Position numbers and translations under genes: made by a program. From an uncultured SAR86 cluster bacterium (GTDB taxonomy: Bacteria > Pseudomonadota > Gammaproteobacteria > Magnimaribacterales > Magnimaribacteraceae), in contig CACAIY010000005.1 in assembly GCA_902532675.1 (NCBI GenBank), forward strand, positions 1 through 64,000: a stretch of DNA of 64,000 bases, in the 5' to 3' direction. The notes beneath the pieces were generated by a model. It did no database searches and was not told where the DNA came from. It was given only the letters and a program-made list of their open reading frames with translations. This document shows positions 52,774 through 60,383 of the stretch, in pieces; within the stretch, counting starts at the first letter, position 1, and each line of letters starts with the position of its first letter.

Positions 52774-54990
52774 ATGTCTATAGAACAAGTAGAAGTTTTA
52801 GTACCAATACCGATATTAGAAAAGTTTTCTTACTTGTTGCCTGCTCAATTTCAAGATAATCCTCCGAGTCCTGGATCTAGGGTATTAGTACCCTTTGGGA
52901 GGAGAAATCTTGTCGGTGTTGTGTGGGATGTTAAAAAAAATATTTCTAAAAAAGACAGAAAGTTAAAGAATATAAAAGAGGTATTGGATCATAAACCTTT
53001 ATTGAACAAAGAGTCTTTAGAGTTAGCTGATTGGGCATCTCGTTACTACCATTACCCCCTGGGTGATGTTATTTCTTATTTCTTTCCTCCTCCTATAAGA
53101 AAAGGAAAAGAGGCAAAATTTGCAGAGGTTAAATTTCTAGAATTGACTAGCAAGGGCGATTTCCTAAATATTGATGACCTTTCTAAGGCTCCTAATCAAA
53201 AGAAACTGATCGAGGCATTAAAGGATAAGAAGGAACTGTCTCAAAAGGCAGCGGCAGCTTATGGAGTCAATACTTCTTCGATCAATGCATTAATCGATAA
53301 AGGTCTAATTTCAAGATACGTTCGAGAACTATCCCCCTATAAAAAGGAAGAAGTTCCAGATGCTAGCAGCGTAAAGAAAAAATTGAATGAGGAACAAAAA
53401 TTTGCAGTTGATTCTATTGTTAAGTCAGAAAACCACAATAAAGTTTTCCTTTTAAATGGAATTACAGGAAGCGGAAAAACAGAAGTTTATCTTCAAGCTA
53501 TCCAAGAAGTAATAAAGAAAGGTAAACAAGCCCTCATCTTAATACCTGAAATAGGTTTAGCCCCTCAAGCCGAAGAAAGATTTAAGAAATACTTTGGCGA
53601 AAGAGTTTTATCATTCCACTCTGCTAAGAATGATAGAGAAAAGGTAGATGCTTGGCTGGGGGCTTCTAAGGGATTGATAGATATTATTATTGGTACGAGA
53701 TCTAGCGTATTTATGCCTATGAATGATATTGGAATAATTGTTATTGATGAGGAGCATGATTTATCTTATAAGCAAGTAGATAGGTTTAGATATTCAGCAA
53801 GAGATATAGCTCTTTATAGGGCTAAGATAGAAAAAATACCTGTAGTTTTAGCTTCAGCAACTCCTTCGTTAGAAACCCTTAATAATTCATTAGAAGGAAA
53901 ATACGAAATATTGAATTTAACTAAAAGGGCTACCGGAGCAAGCCTTCCTAAATATTTGCCCATTGACCTAAGAGGTAAAGAATTAAAAGAAGGTTTTAGT
54001 GATGAGCTGATTGATGCTAGTGAAGAAGAGTTAAAAAAAGGTAATCAAGTTCTTATCTTCTTGAATAGGCGAGGATACGCACCTTCTTTAATTTGTAAAA
54101 CATGCGGATGGCTATCAAATTGTGATAGATGTGATGCACTTATGACAATACACAAAAGACCCCCGAAATTACAATGTCATCATTGTGAATCTCAGAAGGA
54201 CGAGCCAAAAGTATGCCCTTCGTGCCAATCTAACGACTTCTTGTCTTATGGTTATGGAACAGAAAGGATAGAAGAATTTCTTACTAATAGATTCTCTCAA
54301 TTTCCTGTTCTTAGGATCGATAGTGATTCAACAAGAAAAAAAGAATCTATGAATGAATATCTTGGTTTAATTAATTCAGGTAGGCCGATGGTTCTCTTGG
54401 GCACACAATTACTTGCTAAGGGGCACCATTTTCCTAATGTAACTCTTGTAGGAATACTGGATGCAGATTCTGGATTATTTAGTGCAGACTTTAGAGGCAG
54501 TGAGAGGGTTGCTCAACTAATGACACAGGTGGCTGGTAGAGCAGGCAGAGATAAAAAGCCAGGTAAAGCGATTCTGCAGTCTTATTGCCCTGATCATCCG
54601 CAAATAGAAGAGCTCATCAAGGGCAGCTACGAGAGCTTTGCTAAAAATTTATTGTTAGAAAGGAAATCTGCTAAGTCGCCACCTTTTACTTTTCTAGCTA
54701 AGATTCAAGCTGAATCAGCTAATAGTTATGTAAGTAGAGATTTTATAAAGGCCCTTATCAATAAACTTAAGAAATCTAAGGCTTATCCAAAAGATATTAG
54801 AGTCATAGGGCCTCTTCCTGCAATTATGGAAAAAAAATCTGGAGTTTATAGGTGGGAGTTGAGTGTTCTTTCAGGAAGCAGAAACTCATTACATAAGTTC
54901 TTAGATCTAAGTCAAGCTAGTCTATATAACCCAAAAACCAGTAAAAAAGTGCGTTGGTCTATTGATGTAGACCCTTTATCTTCAATTTAA
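52774..54990 (+). CDS. priA: Primosomal replication restart helicase PriA
   Basis: 738 residues (E. coli 732). N-terminal DNA-binding domain (about 1-195), Walker A GITGSGKTEVYLQA near 230, IDEEHDLSYKQ (DEEH box), SATPSLETL, and the zinc-binding insert CKTCGWLSNCDRCDALM, CHHC and CPSC near 450-490, then the helicase C motifs GTQLLAKGHHFPNVTLVG and QVAGRAGRDKKPG. Restarts stalled forks. Its stop overlaps the convergent SDR end by 9 bases. Confidence 0.97.
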   Translation: MSIEQVEVLVPIPILEKFSYLLPAQFQDNPPSPGSRVLVPFGRRNLVGVVWDVKKNISKKDRKLKNIKEVLDHKPLLNKESLELADWASRYYHYPLGDVISYFFPPPIRKGKEAKFAEVKFLELTSKGDFLNIDDLSKAPNQKKLIEALKDKKELSQKAAAAYGVNTSSINALIDKGLISRYVRELSPYKKEEVPDASSVKKKLNEEQKFAVDSIVKSENHNKVFLLNGITGSGKTEVYLQAIQEVIKKGKQALILIPEIGLAPQAEERFKKYFGERVLSFHSAKNDREKVDAWLGASKGLIDIIIGTRSSVFMPMNDIGIIVIDEEHDLSYKQVDRFRYSARDIALYRAKIEKIPVVLASATPSLETLNNSLEGKYEILNLTKRATGASLPKYLPIDLRGKELKEGFSDELIDASEEELKKGNQVLIFLNRRGYAPSLICKTCGWLSNCDRCDALMTIHKRPPKLQCHHCESQKDEPKVCPSCQSNDFLSYGYGTERIEEFLTNRFSQFPVLRIDSDSTRKKESMNEYLGLINSGRPMVLLGTQLLAKGHHFPNVTLVGILDADSGLFSADFRGSERVAQLMTQVAGRAGRDKKPGKAILQSYCPDHPQIEELIKGSYESFAKNLLLERKSAKSPPFTFLAKIQAESANSYVSRDFIKALINKLKKSKAYPKDIRVIGPLPAIMEKKSGVYRWELSVLSGSRNSLHKFLDLSQASLYNPKTSKKVRWSIDVDPLSSI

Positions 54991-55842
54991 ATCTACACCT
55001 GTTAATTCAGAGCTTACAGACCACAATTTCTCTGCTTGCTCTTCGCTTTTGGCCGCACCCAGAAGTTTTTCAATTTTACAATCAACAAAATATTCACCAG
55101 AAACTCCTTCAACTTCCGGAGAGGTGCAAAGATAAATAGAAGTTTCTGCTCCTTTATCAGTCTTTTTAGCAAAAGGTCTGCCAAGATTCATCAACAATTT
55201 TACCAAGGACCCTTTGTTGTTTAACCCTATACCAGTGTCTACGTATCCTGGGTGTAGGCAATTAACAGTTATATTATTCTTTTTAACTTTAGAGGCTAAA
55301 CTTCTAGTAAAAAGAATATTGGCTAGTTTGGATTGTCCGTAAACTTTGAAGGGTTTGTAGTCTTCTTTAGATTGCAGATCCTCAAAATTCATTTCTTTTA
55401 CAAATCTGTAGCCCATGGAGGCAACATTCACAATCCTTTTCCCGCCAGACTCAATCATTTTTTCAATTAATGACAATGTAAGGGTGAAATAGGCTAAGTG
55501 ATTGACGGAAAATACTTCTTCCAATCCATCAACAGTCTCTGCTCTCTCTCGATTCATAATCCCAGCGTTGTTGAGAAGTATATGCAGAGGCTTATCTAAA
55601 GATAGAAATTGATCTGCAGCATTCTTTACCTCGCTGAGTGAAGATAAATCAGCAAGAATAGCTGTAGCTTCTCTACCTGTCTCTGACATTAGTTCTTTCT
55701 GTAATTTTTCTGCTTTTTCTTTATTCCTGGCAATAAAAACAATTTCAGCTCCCATTTTATTGAGAGACTTAGCTGCTTCAAGCCCAATTCCATTGGTTGC
55801 CCCTGTTATTAAGCAAACTTTATTTTTTAAATTTTCATTCAT
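54982..55842 (-). CDS. Short-chain dehydrogenase/reductase, retinol-dehydrogenase-like
   Basis: 286 residues, no signal peptide. NAD(P) motif LITGATNGIGLEAAKSL, NNAGIM near 90, catalytic Ser in VASMGYR and YGQSKLANI (Tyr and Lys). The size and the ANILFTRSLASKVKKNNITVNCLHPGYV segment resemble the retinol dehydrogenase/WWOX-like group of SDRs that act on lipid alcohols or ketones. Its start overlaps the upstream in-frame extension of the plus-strand methyltransferase, so the two genes are divergent with almost no spacer. Confidence 0.87.
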   Translation of the reverse strand: MNENLKNKVCLITGATNGIGLEAAKSLNKMGAEIVFIARNKEKAEKLQKELMSETGREATAILADLSSLSEVKNAADQFLSLDKPLHILLNNAGIMNRERAETVDGLEEVFSVNHLAYFTLTLSLIEKMIESGGKRIVNVASMGYRFVKEMNFEDLQSKEDYKPFKVYGQSKLANILFTRSLASKVKKNNITVNCLHPGYVDTGIGLNNKGSLVKLLMNLGRPFAKKTDKGAETSIYLCTSPEVEGVSGEYFVDCKIEKLLGAAKSEEQAEKLWSVSSELTGVDLN

Positions 55843-55882
55843 GCTCTTTGCCTTTTTTTATTCTAAGTATAAGATTAGAGAG

Positions 55883-56503
55883 GTGAGTCTATATGATAAA
55901 TACATACTTCCAAAATTTCTAAATTGCGCTTGTGGGTCAAAGCCAATAACTTACCAAAGAAAGAAGGTGGTTCCTTTATCAGAAGGAAATGTATTAGAGG
56001 TGGGCATAGGTTCGGGTCTTAATCTTCCTTATTATGACCATTCTAAAATAGATCAAATATGGGGCCTAGATCCTTCAGATGAACTCAGTGCCATGGCAAA
56101 AGAGACGGCGAACGATGAAGGCCTAGACATTAACTTTATATCTTGCGGGGCAGAAGAAATTCCTCTCCCAGATAATCATTTTGATAGCGTATTGATCACT
56201 TACACCATGTGCACTATTCCAGAAGTGATAAGAGCAAATATTGAAATTAAAAGAGTTCTTAAAGATGGAGGAAAATTAATATTTTGTGAGCATGGAGTAG
56301 CACCGGATGAGAATATCATTAAGTGGCAATCTAGAATAAATCCTATATGGGGGAAAATAGCTGGCGGGTGTAATATTAATAGAAACATTCCTCAGATAAT
56401 TGAACAGTCCGGGTTTAGGATTGAACAGATGGAAGAAATGTATCTTCCTAGTACACCAAAAATTGCCGGTTACAATTATTGGGGATTTGCTGTAGGAAAT
56501 TAA
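55883..56503 (+). CDS. Class I SAM-dependent methyltransferase
   Basis: 206 residues from a GTG (VSLYDKYILPKFLNCACGSK). SAM motif VLEVGIGSGLNLPYYD near 37, GLDPSDELSAMAKE, and LPDNHFDSVLITYTMCTIPE are typical of the type 11 family; the N terminus resembles phosphatidylethanolamine N-methyltransferase-like proteins. An ATG 14 codons upstream (55841) and a longer frame exist, but they are less like the family and would overlap the SDR start. TAATG coupling with the next gene. Confidence 0.72.
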   Translation: MSLYDKYILPKFLNCACGSKPITYQRKKVVPLSEGNVLEVGIGSGLNLPYYDHSKIDQIWGLDPSDELSAMAKETANDEGLDINFISCGAEEIPLPDNHFDSVLITYTMCTIPEVIRANIEIKRVLKDGGKLIFCEHGVAPDENIIKWQSRINPIWGKIAGGCNINRNIPQIIEQSGFRIEQMEEMYLPSTPKIAGYNYWGFAVGN

Positions 56504-57564
56504 TGGGTTGGAAATGGATTTCGTTCGGAATTCTATGTCTTGTTCTGCTATTTCAGTATAAGAACATATCGAGTTATATAGCTGTAGAGCTTGCATTAAA
56601 GGGTTTTAAAGAGTTAGACGTTAATTCAGATGACGTTATAGATAAGTCTGAATGGCCTGGCATAGGGTTTTCAATATTTGATGTGGACAGAGACAATCTA
56701 GTCGATGATGAAGAAATCAGGCTCTTTATTAAAGAATCTTTAAAAGGATTCTCTTGGGTAAATAAAGTCTCTGGTCGTATTAACGTTCCAGAGCAATTGA
56801 TCCATTCAACTTTCATTAGTCCTTCAATGAATAGGGAAGTAGGCTATTACATTTATATTCCTGATTCTTATCATAAAGATTTAAAGAAAGAATTCCGTAC
56901 TGTTTATTATTTACATGGGGGCAGGCCCGGCAATGAAAGCAGGTCCGTAATTATTACTAATGTCATACATGACTTATTTAGCAATTCTGAAATAGACCCT
57001 GCTCTTTATGTTTTTGTTAATGGAGGGGAATTGAGTCATTACAATTCAAAAGAAAAGCAATCTTATGGAGAAGATGTATTTATTAAAGAACTTATCCCAC
57101 ACATTGATAATACATATAGAACATTAGCTAGTCGTTCCGGAAGGGGTCTAGAAGGATTTTCTCAAGGAGGTAGGGGTGCCACTAGATATATGTTCAAGTA
57201 CCCTGAAATCTTTTCTACTGTTTCAGCTGGTGGAGGTTCATACGAGATAGAAAAATTGATACAACAAAATAATGGTTATGAAGATGATCCAAGAGGAGAT
57301 GATGAAAATGTTTATTTTGTTGGTAAAGGCAATGACGCTTGGTCTTTAGCTAAAAAATTTACTGAAATGGGCGCTGCTTATCCTGATTTATTAATATGGT
57401 CAGGAACGGAAGATCCCAATTATCCAAGCATAGAGGTATACATGAATTATTTAGATAAATTAGAAATTGAATACTATTCCCTTATAGTTAAAGGCGTTGA
57501 CCATAATCCTTTTATTTTTTACGAAGAATCAGGTGAAGAACTAATAAGGTTCCATGCAAAATGA
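56503..57564 (+). CDS. Membrane-anchored esterase with an N-terminal EF-hand pair
   Basis: 353 residues. One N-terminal hydrophobic segment (about 5-17) for membrane anchoring, then two EF-hand loops, DVNSDDVIDKSE (39-50) and DVDRDNLVDDEE (60-71), with calcium-binding acids at positions 1, 3, 5, 9 and 12, then an esterase (PF00756-like) alpha/beta hydrolase from about 105. Catalytic residues: S220 (GFSQGG), D304 (GTEDP) and H334 (GVDHNP). Domain order EF-hand plus esterase is unusual. Coupled by TAATG to the methyltransferase and by ATGA to the next esterase. Confidence 0.8.
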   Translation: MGWKWISFGILCLVLLFQYKNISSYIAVELALKGFKELDVNSDDVIDKSEWPGIGFSIFDVDRDNLVDDEEIRLFIKESLKGFSWVNKVSGRINVPEQLIHSTFISPSMNREVGYYIYIPDSYHKDLKKEFRTVYYLHGGRPGNESRSVIITNVIHDLFSNSEIDPALYVFVNGGELSHYNSKEKQSYGEDVFIKELIPHIDNTYRTLASRSGRGLEGFSQGGRGATRYMFKYPEIFSTVSAGGGSYEIEKLIQQNNGYEDDPRGDDENVYFVGKGNDAWSLAKKFTEMGAAYPDLLIWSGTEDPNYPSIEVYMNYLDKLEIEYYSLIVKGVDHNPFIFYEESGEELIRFHAK

Positions 57565-58475
57565 TTAAAAGAACATTCACTTTATTTATATTAGTTTTTT
57601 TTATTTCAGTATCTGCATCTGAAGAAAAAATCTTCTCTCATAACGGACTAGAAAGGTCTTATTATTTGCATATTCCTCAGGATTTGGAAGACAAAGCCCC
57701 TTTAGTTGTTGTTATTCATGGGTATACAAGTGCTGCAGAAAACATTATGTCTTATTCTAAGATGAATGAAGTTGCCGATCGTGAAGGCTTCGCAGTAATT
57801 TACCCTCAAGGAACGATTGATAGTCAGGGTAATGCTTTTTTTAATGTTGGTTATGAATTCAACAAAGATTCAAAAATAGATGATGTTTCTTTTATTAGGG
57901 AACTCGTAATACAAGTTAGAGATACATACCAACTTAGCGAAAAGAATATTTTTGCTACTGGAATGTCTAATGGAGGCGACATGAGTTATCTATTGGCTTG
58001 TACTTCTTCAGATTTATTTAAAGCAGTTGCACCAGTTGCTGGAGTCATGATGAAAGAAACTTTAGATAACTGTAACCCTCAAAACCCAATTCCAGTTTTT
58101 GAAATCCATGGAACCAATGACAAGATTTCGTTGTTTCAAGGTGATATCGAAAATAAAGGAGGATGGGGTTCTTACTATGGTTTGCCTGAAACAATCCAGT
58201 TCTGGGCTTATATACATAACTTAGACAAAAATGAATCTGTTTACATAGCATCGAAAGACGAGGGCGATCAGAATGATATTATCTTTGAACGTTATTGGTC
58301 GGAAGACAACATAAACGAAGTTTGGTTATATAAAATTGTTGATGCAGGACATATATGGCCAGGATTTAGAATTAGATGGTGGCAAAACCCTTTGCTGTGG
58401 TATTACATGGGATCAGGCAACGATGATATAAGTGCAAGTGAAGAAGTATGGGAATTTTTTAAGAAATACCTCTAG
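57561..58475 (+). CDS. Secreted PHB-depolymerase/feruloyl-esterase-like alpha/beta hydrolase
   Basis: 304 residues. Signal peptide (about 1-19), then an LpqC/PhaZ-type esterase. VVVIHGYTSAAENIM near 49, nucleophile S136 in ATGMSNGGDMSYLLA, D187 (HGTNDKIS) and H264 (DAGHIWPG). Family members split ester bonds of polyhydroxyalkanoates, feruloyl esters or xylan acetyl groups. No binding module is attached. ATGA overlap with the EF-hand esterase. Confidence 0.83.
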   Translation: MIKRTFTLFILVFFISVSASEEKIFSHNGLERSYYLHIPQDLEDKAPLVVVIHGYTSAAENIMSYSKMNEVADREGFAVIYPQGTIDSQGNAFFNVGYEFNKDSKIDDVSFIRELVIQVRDTYQLSEKNIFATGMSNGGDMSYLLACTSSDLFKAVAPVAGVMMKETLDNCNPQNPIPVFEIHGTNDKISLFQGDIENKGGWGSYYGLPETIQFWAYIHNLDKNESVYIASKDEGDQNDIIFERYWSEDNINEVWLYKIVDAGHIWPGFRIRWWQNPLLWYYMGSGNDDISASEEVWEFFKKYL

Positions 58476-58477
58476 AA

Positions 58478-59416
58478 TTAATTGGTTAATGAAACTAAAA
58501 CTTCCCTTCCTTTTTCTCCTGAAAATGATTTTCTTCCATGCATAACTCTATAGTTATCTATTAATAAAATATCTTTATCTTTCCATTTCCTAAGAAGTGT
58601 TAAAGACTCAGCTAATTCAGATATTAATTGAATACTTGATAAGGGTATTTCTTGGTTATTACCAAATGTGACTGGGGAGATGTCATCGTCTAAATTTTTT
58701 TTCCAACCTAAAGAAGCAGCAAGAACTTGATTAAAGAATGATTTAGTACCGTCTTTTAGCTCTTTTATGGCTTCGAATGTACGCGTTGTGACTGATAGGT
58801 TATCTCCATCAATCCAATCCCAGGAATAGCCAAGGTTTTCTAGTTTTATCTCAGCTTCATTTTTAGATTTCACTCCTAAAGTTTTTTGCCAACTTCTTCC
58901 TTGGCCAGAGACTAATTCATCTCCATTGGACATTAGAGTGTTATAAATGACCCCATGTTTTTCAAACTCATCTATTAGACCTTCATCTTCTTTAAGGATT
59001 TCTTCGTATAGATGATCAGAACGACATAAAGGAGTTTGCCCACCTTCTAAAGAAGAAGATTTACAAAAAAAGAATATATTTTTTGGGTAAGTAGGCGTTT
59101 GAGCCATTTCATGATGCAGAAAAATTTCAATTTCTTTAGGTGCTTCATTAGCTGTAAATACTTTATTGGTTTTATTAATTCTTACTGCATTTGAAAGAGA
59201 CTCTTCGTAAGTAAAAGTCTCATAGTTAAATGCAGACACAAAATTATCGAAGTCACCTTCTTCCTCCACGGGAAGATTGCTAAATAGAATTGCTCCACAT
59301 TCTTCGAGTTGAGATTCAATTGATACTTTATTGTTATCAATCCAATTAAGTGTTGAAGTCAGAGTCATTGAATCTGAGCCAGTTTTTATTTCTTGTAAGA
59401 AATCTTTTTTACTCAT
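58478..59416 (-). CDS. TauD/TfdA-like Fe(II)/2-oxoglutarate dioxygenase
   Basis: 312 residues from MSKKDFLQEIK. The HxE pair is in FLHHEMAQTP near 105 and the distal His in NYRVMHGRKSF near 293, followed by the Arg for 2-oxoglutarate. Hydroxylates a small organic substrate; the family includes sulfonate, carnitine-pathway and clavaminate-like enzymes. I prefer the ATG at 59416, which overlaps the AKR stop by 8 bases, to an upstream GTG at 59449. Neither has a ribosome site. Last gene of a three-gene minus-strand unit. Confidence 0.8.
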   Translation of the reverse strand: MSKKDFLQEIKTGSDSMTLTSTLNWIDNNKVSIESQLEECGAILFSNLPVEEEGDFDNFVSAFNYETFTYEESLSNAVRINKTNKVFTANEAPKEIEIFLHHEMAQTPTYPKNIFFFCKSSSLEGGQTPLCRSDHLYEEILKEDEGLIDEFEKHGVIYNTLMSNGDELVSGQGRSWQKTLGVKSKNEAEIKLENLGYSWDWIDGDNLSVTTRTFEAIKELKDGTKSFFNQVLAASLGWKKNLDDDISPVTFGNNQEIPLSSIQLISELAESLTLLRKWKDKDILLIDNYRVMHGRKSFSGEKGREVLVSLTN

Positions 59417-60383
59417 AAATCGGAAAGAAGGTATTAAAGGCGTCTTCACAAAAAACGCCTGGATCGTTATATCTTTTATTGATATTTAGTGCAGATATCT
59501 TATCTATGGTAGCTTGATCTAGCTCAATAACTGAAGCATCTAAATTTTCTTTCATACGAGTCTTACTAGAACTTTTGACCACAATTGAAGTTCCTCTATT
59601 TAAAGCCCAGCTAAGAATTAATTGAGCTGGCGATATCTCAAGATCTTTAGACACTGATTTTATGGTTGGATTTATTAAGAGTGATTCATTTTCTTTAGCG
59701 CCACCTAGCTCCTCATAGGATATTGATCCTAAGGGTGAGAAAGCAGTCACCTCTAGACCATAGCTTTTTGCTAAACGTATAAGCTTTTCTTGAGTAAGGT
59801 AGGGGTGGGACTCGATTTGAAGTATCTCAGGTTTGGTTTCACAGTAGTTCATAAGATCATGAAGCAAACTCGAAGAGTAATTACATATACCTATATGTTT
59901 AGTTAAGGCATCTTTTTTTAAAGATTCCATTGCATGCCAAGTATCTGACAAGGGAACTCTTGAAGGAATCATTTTAGGTTCTGTGCTCTCGGGGTCATTG
60001 AACCACTCAGGTGGATATCTTTGATCGAAGGGTACAAAGTCTAGTGAAATTGGAAAGTGAATCATGTAAAGATCTAGATAATCCAACTGCAAATCTTGAA
60101 GTGTCTTTTCAAGGGCGGGCTTAACATGTTCAGGATGATGATATGTATTCCATAATTTTGAAGTTATCCATAGATCTTCTCTTTTGCACAAACCATTTTC
60201 TAGGGCGGCTTTAATGCCATCACCAACTTCCTTTTCGTTGCCGTAATCTGAAGCTGAATCTAAGTGTCTATATCCCGCCTCTATAGAGTTATAAACAGTC
60301 TCTGAACAAACATCCTTCGGTACTTTCCAAAGTCCAAAGCCTATTTGAGGCATATCCTTTATCGATTTACATTTCGTATTCAT
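59409..60383 (-). CDS. Aldo/keto reductase
   Basis: 324 residues, one TIM barrel. Catalytic tetrad: Asp in RHLDSASDYGNE, Tyr in DYGNE, Lys in WITSKLWNTYH and His in LYMIHFPI. ITSKLWNTYHHPEHVKPALE and the C-terminal IVVKSSSKTRMKENL (NADPH-binding) place it in the xylose/aldose reductase group. Reduces sugar or carbonyl substrates. ATGA overlap with the upstream Gfo/Idh/MocA gene. Confidence 0.88.
   Translation of the reverse strand: MNTKCKSIKDMPQIGFGLWKVPKDVCSETVYNSIEAGYRHLDSASDYGNEKEVGDGIKAALENGLCKREDLWITSKLWNTYHHPEHVKPALEKTLQDLQLDYLDLYMIHFPISLDFVPFDQRYPPEWFNDPESTEPKMIPSRVPLSDTWHAMESLKKDALTKHIGICNYSSSLLHDLMNYCETKPEILQIESHPYLTQEKLIRLAKSYGLEVTAFSPLGSISYEELGGAKENESLLINPTIKSVSKDLEISPAQLILSWALNRGTSIVVKSSSKTRMKENLDASVIELDQATIDKISALNINKRYNDPGVFCEDAFNTFFPIYE

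Follow-up and report, generated by a model that had tools for sequence, protein, structure and literature searches.

What do three overlapping genes of an uncultured SAR86 bacterium, encoding one methyltransferase and two different esterases, accomplish together, and do all three belong to one pathway? Little has been assigned so far of the ester chemistry of SAR86, a group that is abundant in surface oceans. The window analysed here, the whole stretch of 64,000 nucleotides at positions 1 to 64,000 of contig CACAIY010000005.1, comes from a 1.34-Mb, 82%-complete genome of a SAR86-type marine gammaproteobacterium. Its nearest named relative is AG-343-J11 (an uncultured SAR86 single cell, G012), with 92% identity in the middle protein of the operon. 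The operon and its flanks are laid out as follows:

54982-55842, - strand: SDR gene, divergent, upstream flank of the operon (open reading frame list and profile matches)
55883..56503, + strand: class I SAM-dependent methyltransferase, 206 aa, GTG start (Pfam Methyltransf_11, 1.7e-20; orthologs in 32 of 35 family genomes)
56503..57564, + strand: EF-hand and CE1-like (PF00756) esterase, the middle protein, 353 aa (PF00756, 6e-14)
57561..58475, + strand: PHB-depolymerase-family (LpqC/CE1-like) esterase, predicted secreted, 304 aa (NF050058, 171.9 bits; PF10503, 1.8e-12)
58478-59449, - strand: TauD-like gene, convergent, downstream flank of the operon (open reading frame list and profile matches)

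The three frames lie where the first-pass annotation had placed them, joined by a TAATG overlap (56500-56504) between the methyltransferase and the middle gene and an ATGA overlap (57561-57564) between the middle and third genes. The methyltransferase gene adjoins the middle gene in all 20 carriers of the latter, with an overlap of 1 or 4 bases at the stop and start in 19 of the 20 (it is not measurable in G008), and the third gene follows directly in 18; the two exceptions are G008, where it lies on another contig, and G018, where the contig stops inside the esterase gene. The operon is real and conserved, and the earlier view that it holds two different extracytoplasmic hydrolases, both serine esterases, is supported. 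The concern that the genes are separated in relatives was borne out only in part: they stay together in those 18 carriers, and 15 of the 35 family genomes are without the middle gene. Internal stops or a frame change interrupt the methyltransferase gene that precedes the esterase in G008, perhaps through assembly error or decay. In another genus (G004, G003, and G001; L069-L071), the methyltransferase gene has a distant PHB-depolymerase-like gene (~25% identity) near its upstream side, and therefore methyltransferase/esterase neighbourhoods recur in another arrangement. Between its third gene and TauD, AG-343-J11 has 3.3 kb of additional genes (L021:7018-10336), of the proteasome-like peptidase, circularly permuted ATP-grasp, and Alpha-E kinds, which the window lacks at this place. 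Elsewhere in the window, ribosomal protein L31 (52286-52675, - strand; PF01197, 5e-26) has a long C-terminal tail with AEEAPVEE repeats and a lysine/alanine-rich end. Within the literature searches made (titles on EF-hand esterases, SAR86, and PHA depolymerases), we found no account of the operon; its parts are each of known kinds, and what interest there is, a mild one, lies in their combination and its repeated loss.

The middle protein has several features that bear on its function:

56509..56553, + strand: N-terminal hydrophobic helix, probable signal anchor, residues 3-17 (helix in the model, block pLDDT 80/73)
56617..56652, + strand: EF loop 1, residues 39-50, DVNSDDVIDKSE (ligand conservation, ortholog EF models, loop pattern)
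56680..56715, + strand: EF loop 2, residues 60-71, DVDRDNLVDDEE (ligand conservation, Pfam, ortholog EF models, loop pattern)
57160..57162, + strand: S220, nucleophile, in GFSQGG (invariant in 18 of 18 aligned orthologs)
57412..57414, + strand: D304, putative triad acid (invariant in 18 of 18)
57502..57504, + strand: H334, putative triad base (invariant in 18 of 18)

Its esterase domain passed the PF00756 gathering score of 22 with 52.9 bits, in a match that spans residues 106-246 only, so that D304 and H334 lie outside it and were assigned from conservation and position. The intact S220/D304/H334 triad described at first pass is correctly numbered and invariant throughout alignment A1 (n=18, with 57-92% identity of the other sequences to the window protein), from which L019 (Ns), L020 (truncated), and L021 (same locus as L002) were left out; alignment A3 left out L003 (broken frame), L020, and L021. 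The AlphaFold2 model is modest (mean pLDDT 60.4, pTM 0.63), and its best Foldseek matches were CE1 feruloyl/acetyl-xylan esterases (5vol at 9.4e-15, probability 1.00; 7b5v, 6ne9, and 7xrt), which suggests an alpha/beta-hydrolase fold like that of the solved CE1 enzymes. The best solved relatives by sequence were, in line with this, mostly feruloyl or other CE1 esterases. A low dN/dS of 0.094 against G012 shows that the gene is under purifying selection where present.

We found two calcium-type EF loops in the middle protein, as the first-pass annotation had proposed, though the window protein falls below Pfam gathering scores (21.6 bits against a cut-off of 25 for EF-hand_6). EF-type ligands occupy positions 1, 3, 5, and 12 of both loops (position 5 being D, N, or S), and D39, N41, E50, D60, and E71 are invariant in the 18 aligned orthologs, 17 of which matched EF-hand_1 at E<=0.01 (best 4.6e-08), better than the window protein does. 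A custom loop pattern, relaxed at position 9 after inspection of relatives in a way that leaves the window's loops unaffected, matched twice in the middle protein and occurs in only 1 of 76 long open frames across the window; when the protein was shuffled 20000 times, two matches arose in 18 cases. No signal-peptidase site was seen by eye in the N-terminus.

How these loops are used can be read in more than one way. Calcium most likely has a structural or stabilising role in the middle protein, and its nearly constant concentration in seawater makes such a role more probable than that of a switch. That same constancy weighs against a pair that senses calcium and turns the enzyme on, the activation considered at first pass and a reading that the conserved ligands and the EF-model matches of the orthologs would fit; we saw no sign of a conformational link, and the structural model is uninformative here (pLDDT about 24-47 in the EF region, which tells nothing on the loops), so we consider a calcium switch very unlikely. 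The loops might instead be degenerate, forming an acidic linker that binds no calcium in an otherwise ordinary periplasmic CE1 esterase. Such decay would agree with the scores under the Pfam thresholds, with an Ile at position 9 of loop 1 in some relatives, and with a short spacing, the loop starts being 21 residues apart where those of textbook EF pairs are wider apart; against it, the 18 sequences show no variation at positions 1 and 12 of either loop or at position 3 of loop 1, and we judge degeneracy unlikely.

The third protein has at its N-terminus what looks by eye like a signal peptide, and it passed the curated NF050058 cut-off of 150 bits, in keeping with its original description as a secreted LpqC/PhaZ-like esterase. 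Its putative triad, S136/D187/H264, does not vary among the 17 sequences of alignment A2, which left out L019 and L021 and had no adjacent third gene to align for L003 and L020. The gene is also under purifying selection, as a dN/dS of 0.157 against G012 shows. The structural model was poor (mean pLDDT 53.3), and relatives were judged by sequence: the nearest solved ones are mostly feruloyl esterases (9j07, 8jh8), and the GMSNGG box is presumably that of feruloyl/LpqC-type enzymes.

The operon had been suggested to degrade polyester or complex lipids; in such a system, both esterases would depolymerise extracellular polyester (PHA/PHB) and the methyltransferase would modify a lipid product. 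We examined the PHA/PHB system through PhaC, domain content, and solved relatives, and kept it only as a rival. In its favour, NF050058 models extracellular scl-PHA depolymerases and was matched at E<=1e-5 by all 17 aligned orthologs of the third protein, which also has the PF10503 match; against it, NF050058 is a 'hypoth_equivalog' model, and TIGR01840 scored 80.5, under its cut-off of 107.85. NF050058 covers residues 25-300 of the 304, leaving a lone catalytic domain, no polymer-binding domain, and no room for one. The PhaC_N profile had no match in the window's own 82%-complete genome and did match the control, Caulobacter vibrioides, a result that bears on PHA storage and not on the use of outside PHA. 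Together with the feruloyl-esterase relatives and the GMSNGG box, these results leave polyester degradation unsupported, and we think it quite unlikely.

The methyltransferase appears to stand apart from the esterases. Among its 25 best matches no curated NCBIfam cut-off was reached (the best, PmtA, scored 53.7 against 390 bits), and its solved relatives are generic. Motifs that follow the SAM domain (EHG-x-AP, WQ, NP-W, GGCN-x-R) seem reminiscent of TMT1/METTL7-like small-molecule (thiol) methyltransferases. METTL7B is described as having thiol methyltransferase activity (PMC7921093). Orthologs of the methyltransferase occur in 32 of the 35 family genomes versus 20 for the EF-hand esterase, which argues for its independence and lowers the case for functional coupling; the methyltransferase is probably only co-transcribed and not in the esterases' pathway.

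Of 35 genomes in the family, 20 carry the EF-hand esterase and 26 encode a strong ortholog of the third protein (at least 294 bits); among the 203 of the order, carriers of the EF-hand esterase again number 20. Outside the order, 369 genomes of the class and 398 of the phylum yielded no full-length EF-hand relative, which speaks against horizontal spread from beyond the order. Matches there were to the esterase domain only, in 4 of the 369 class and 23 of the 398 phylum genomes besides the window's own, and the EF-loop pattern was absent from the 22 esterase loci examined among them. Phage records gave just four weak esterase-domain matches (23-25% identity). The genomes sampled being those of its own class and phylum, the EF-hand/CE1 fusion may be confined to the SAR86 family, and it may also be present elsewhere, beyond the genomes searched.

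Six family genomes keep the methyltransferase gene with the esterase reduced to a remnant behind it. In G014, this is the 3' end of the esterase, with 23 of 25 bases identical to G012; in G032, it is 46 bases of the EF-hand region, still reading IIKSEWPGLGFSL; in G006 and G007, it is the last ~70-80 bases of the gene, catalytic His codon included, so alike that one deletion event probably produced both; in G013 and G010, it is 5' parts of the gene, which could share one deletion. By plain local alignment, none of 1000 shuffles was as good for G014, G032, G006, or G007, versus 35 of 1000 for G013 and 742 of 1000, not significant, for G010. When the alignment was anchored at the methyltransferase stop, no shuffle out of 2000 was as good for G013 and 19 were for G010; of 2000 random window pieces, none was for G013 and 2 were for G010. 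Chance is thus ruled out for four remnants, which are certain, and the anchored alignment makes the other two likely. Contigs run continuously from the methyltransferase gene to the junction in all six, which rules out an assembly gap, and about 20-60 bases now separate the methyltransferase gene from the third gene in G014, G013, and G010. The remnants differ, which implies four to five separate deletions. The nine other non-carriers were uninformative: G005, G011, and G026 had no methyltransferase match, and no remnant was found in G001-G004, G009, and G015, among which the G002 locus was left out of the remnant inspection.

The locus has also been exchanged between lineages, over the following stretch:

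56752..58475, + strand: stretch common to the G012 lineage by recombination (6.0% mismatches versus 19.1% in 52774-56752)

The breakpoint near 56752 had a maximum chi-square of 160.5, and none of 2000 block permutations was as high. Values of dS against G012 fall from 1.35 in the methyltransferase gene and 1.24 in SDR to 0.39 in the EF-hand esterase and 0.17 in the third gene. G014 is otherwise the closest relative (93.5-94.2% in the methyltransferase gene and SDR), yet in the third gene its identity to the window is 91.8%, below the 95.0% of G012. The mismatch step, the dS drop, and this reversal therefore show an exchange with another species, in either direction, that takes in the third gene and the 3' part of the esterase from a breakpoint just 3' of the EF-hands.

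We propose an explanation for the whole operon that we hold with about even confidence: a methyltransferase in the cytoplasm, two serine esterases outside it, structural calcium, and a dispensable EF-hand esterase moved in part by recombination. The N-terminal helix would hold the middle protein in the inner membrane, and a calcium-loaded EF-hand pair may serve as a rigid neck between this anchor and the CE1-type hydrolase domain, which would lie in the periplasm, while the third protein would be a soluble, exported esterase of the CE1/PHB-depolymerase family. Both esterases most likely cleave acyl or aromatic esters of small or sugar-linked organics that the cell takes up from seawater, a substrate class suggested by their relatives. 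The methyltransferase, sharing a transcript and coupled translation with them, would probably serve a separate pathway. The EF-hand esterase would be a dispensable accessory enzyme; the family has lost it by four or more deletions, and homologous recombination moved its 3' part with the third gene. More doubtfully, the EF-hand esterase may be under fluctuating selection in SAR86, deleted repeatedly at different endpoints and regained via interspecies recombination of the esterase cassette; if true, this is what would be expected of a public-good or predator/phage-exposed function, the enzyme being an exposed one. The locus shows accessory enzyme content flickering by deletion and recombination even in small genomes, and a conserved locus with defined carriers and natural deletion genomes offers a natural contrast for finding the dissolved esters used.

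Known systems resemble each protein in part. The methyltransferase differs from the TMT1/METTL7 enzymes, which it may resemble, in having no N-terminal membrane anchor. The third protein passes the curated cut-off for the extracellular catalytic-domain type 1 scl-PHA depolymerases and LpqC-type enzymes of NF050058, without their binding domain or linker. The nearest homologs of the middle protein outside the family, in the 398 sampled genomes, are L104-L106 from other Pseudomonadota (E 1.8e-45 to 2.2e-39), which match its profile from positions 83-103 to the end; none of them showed an EF loop. To our knowledge, the CE1 feruloyl esterases 7xrt, 5vol, and 1jjf have neither an EF-hand neck nor a membrane anchor. 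These enzymes (BT_4077, Bacint_04212, and the XynZ FAE domain, respectively) have the alpha/beta-hydrolase fold and Ser-Asp-His triad in common with the middle protein, at ~20% identity in fold alignments, with E values for CE1/PF00756 feruloyl esterases of 9.1e-13 to 9e-07 by sequence and 9.4e-15 to 4.2e-11 by fold.
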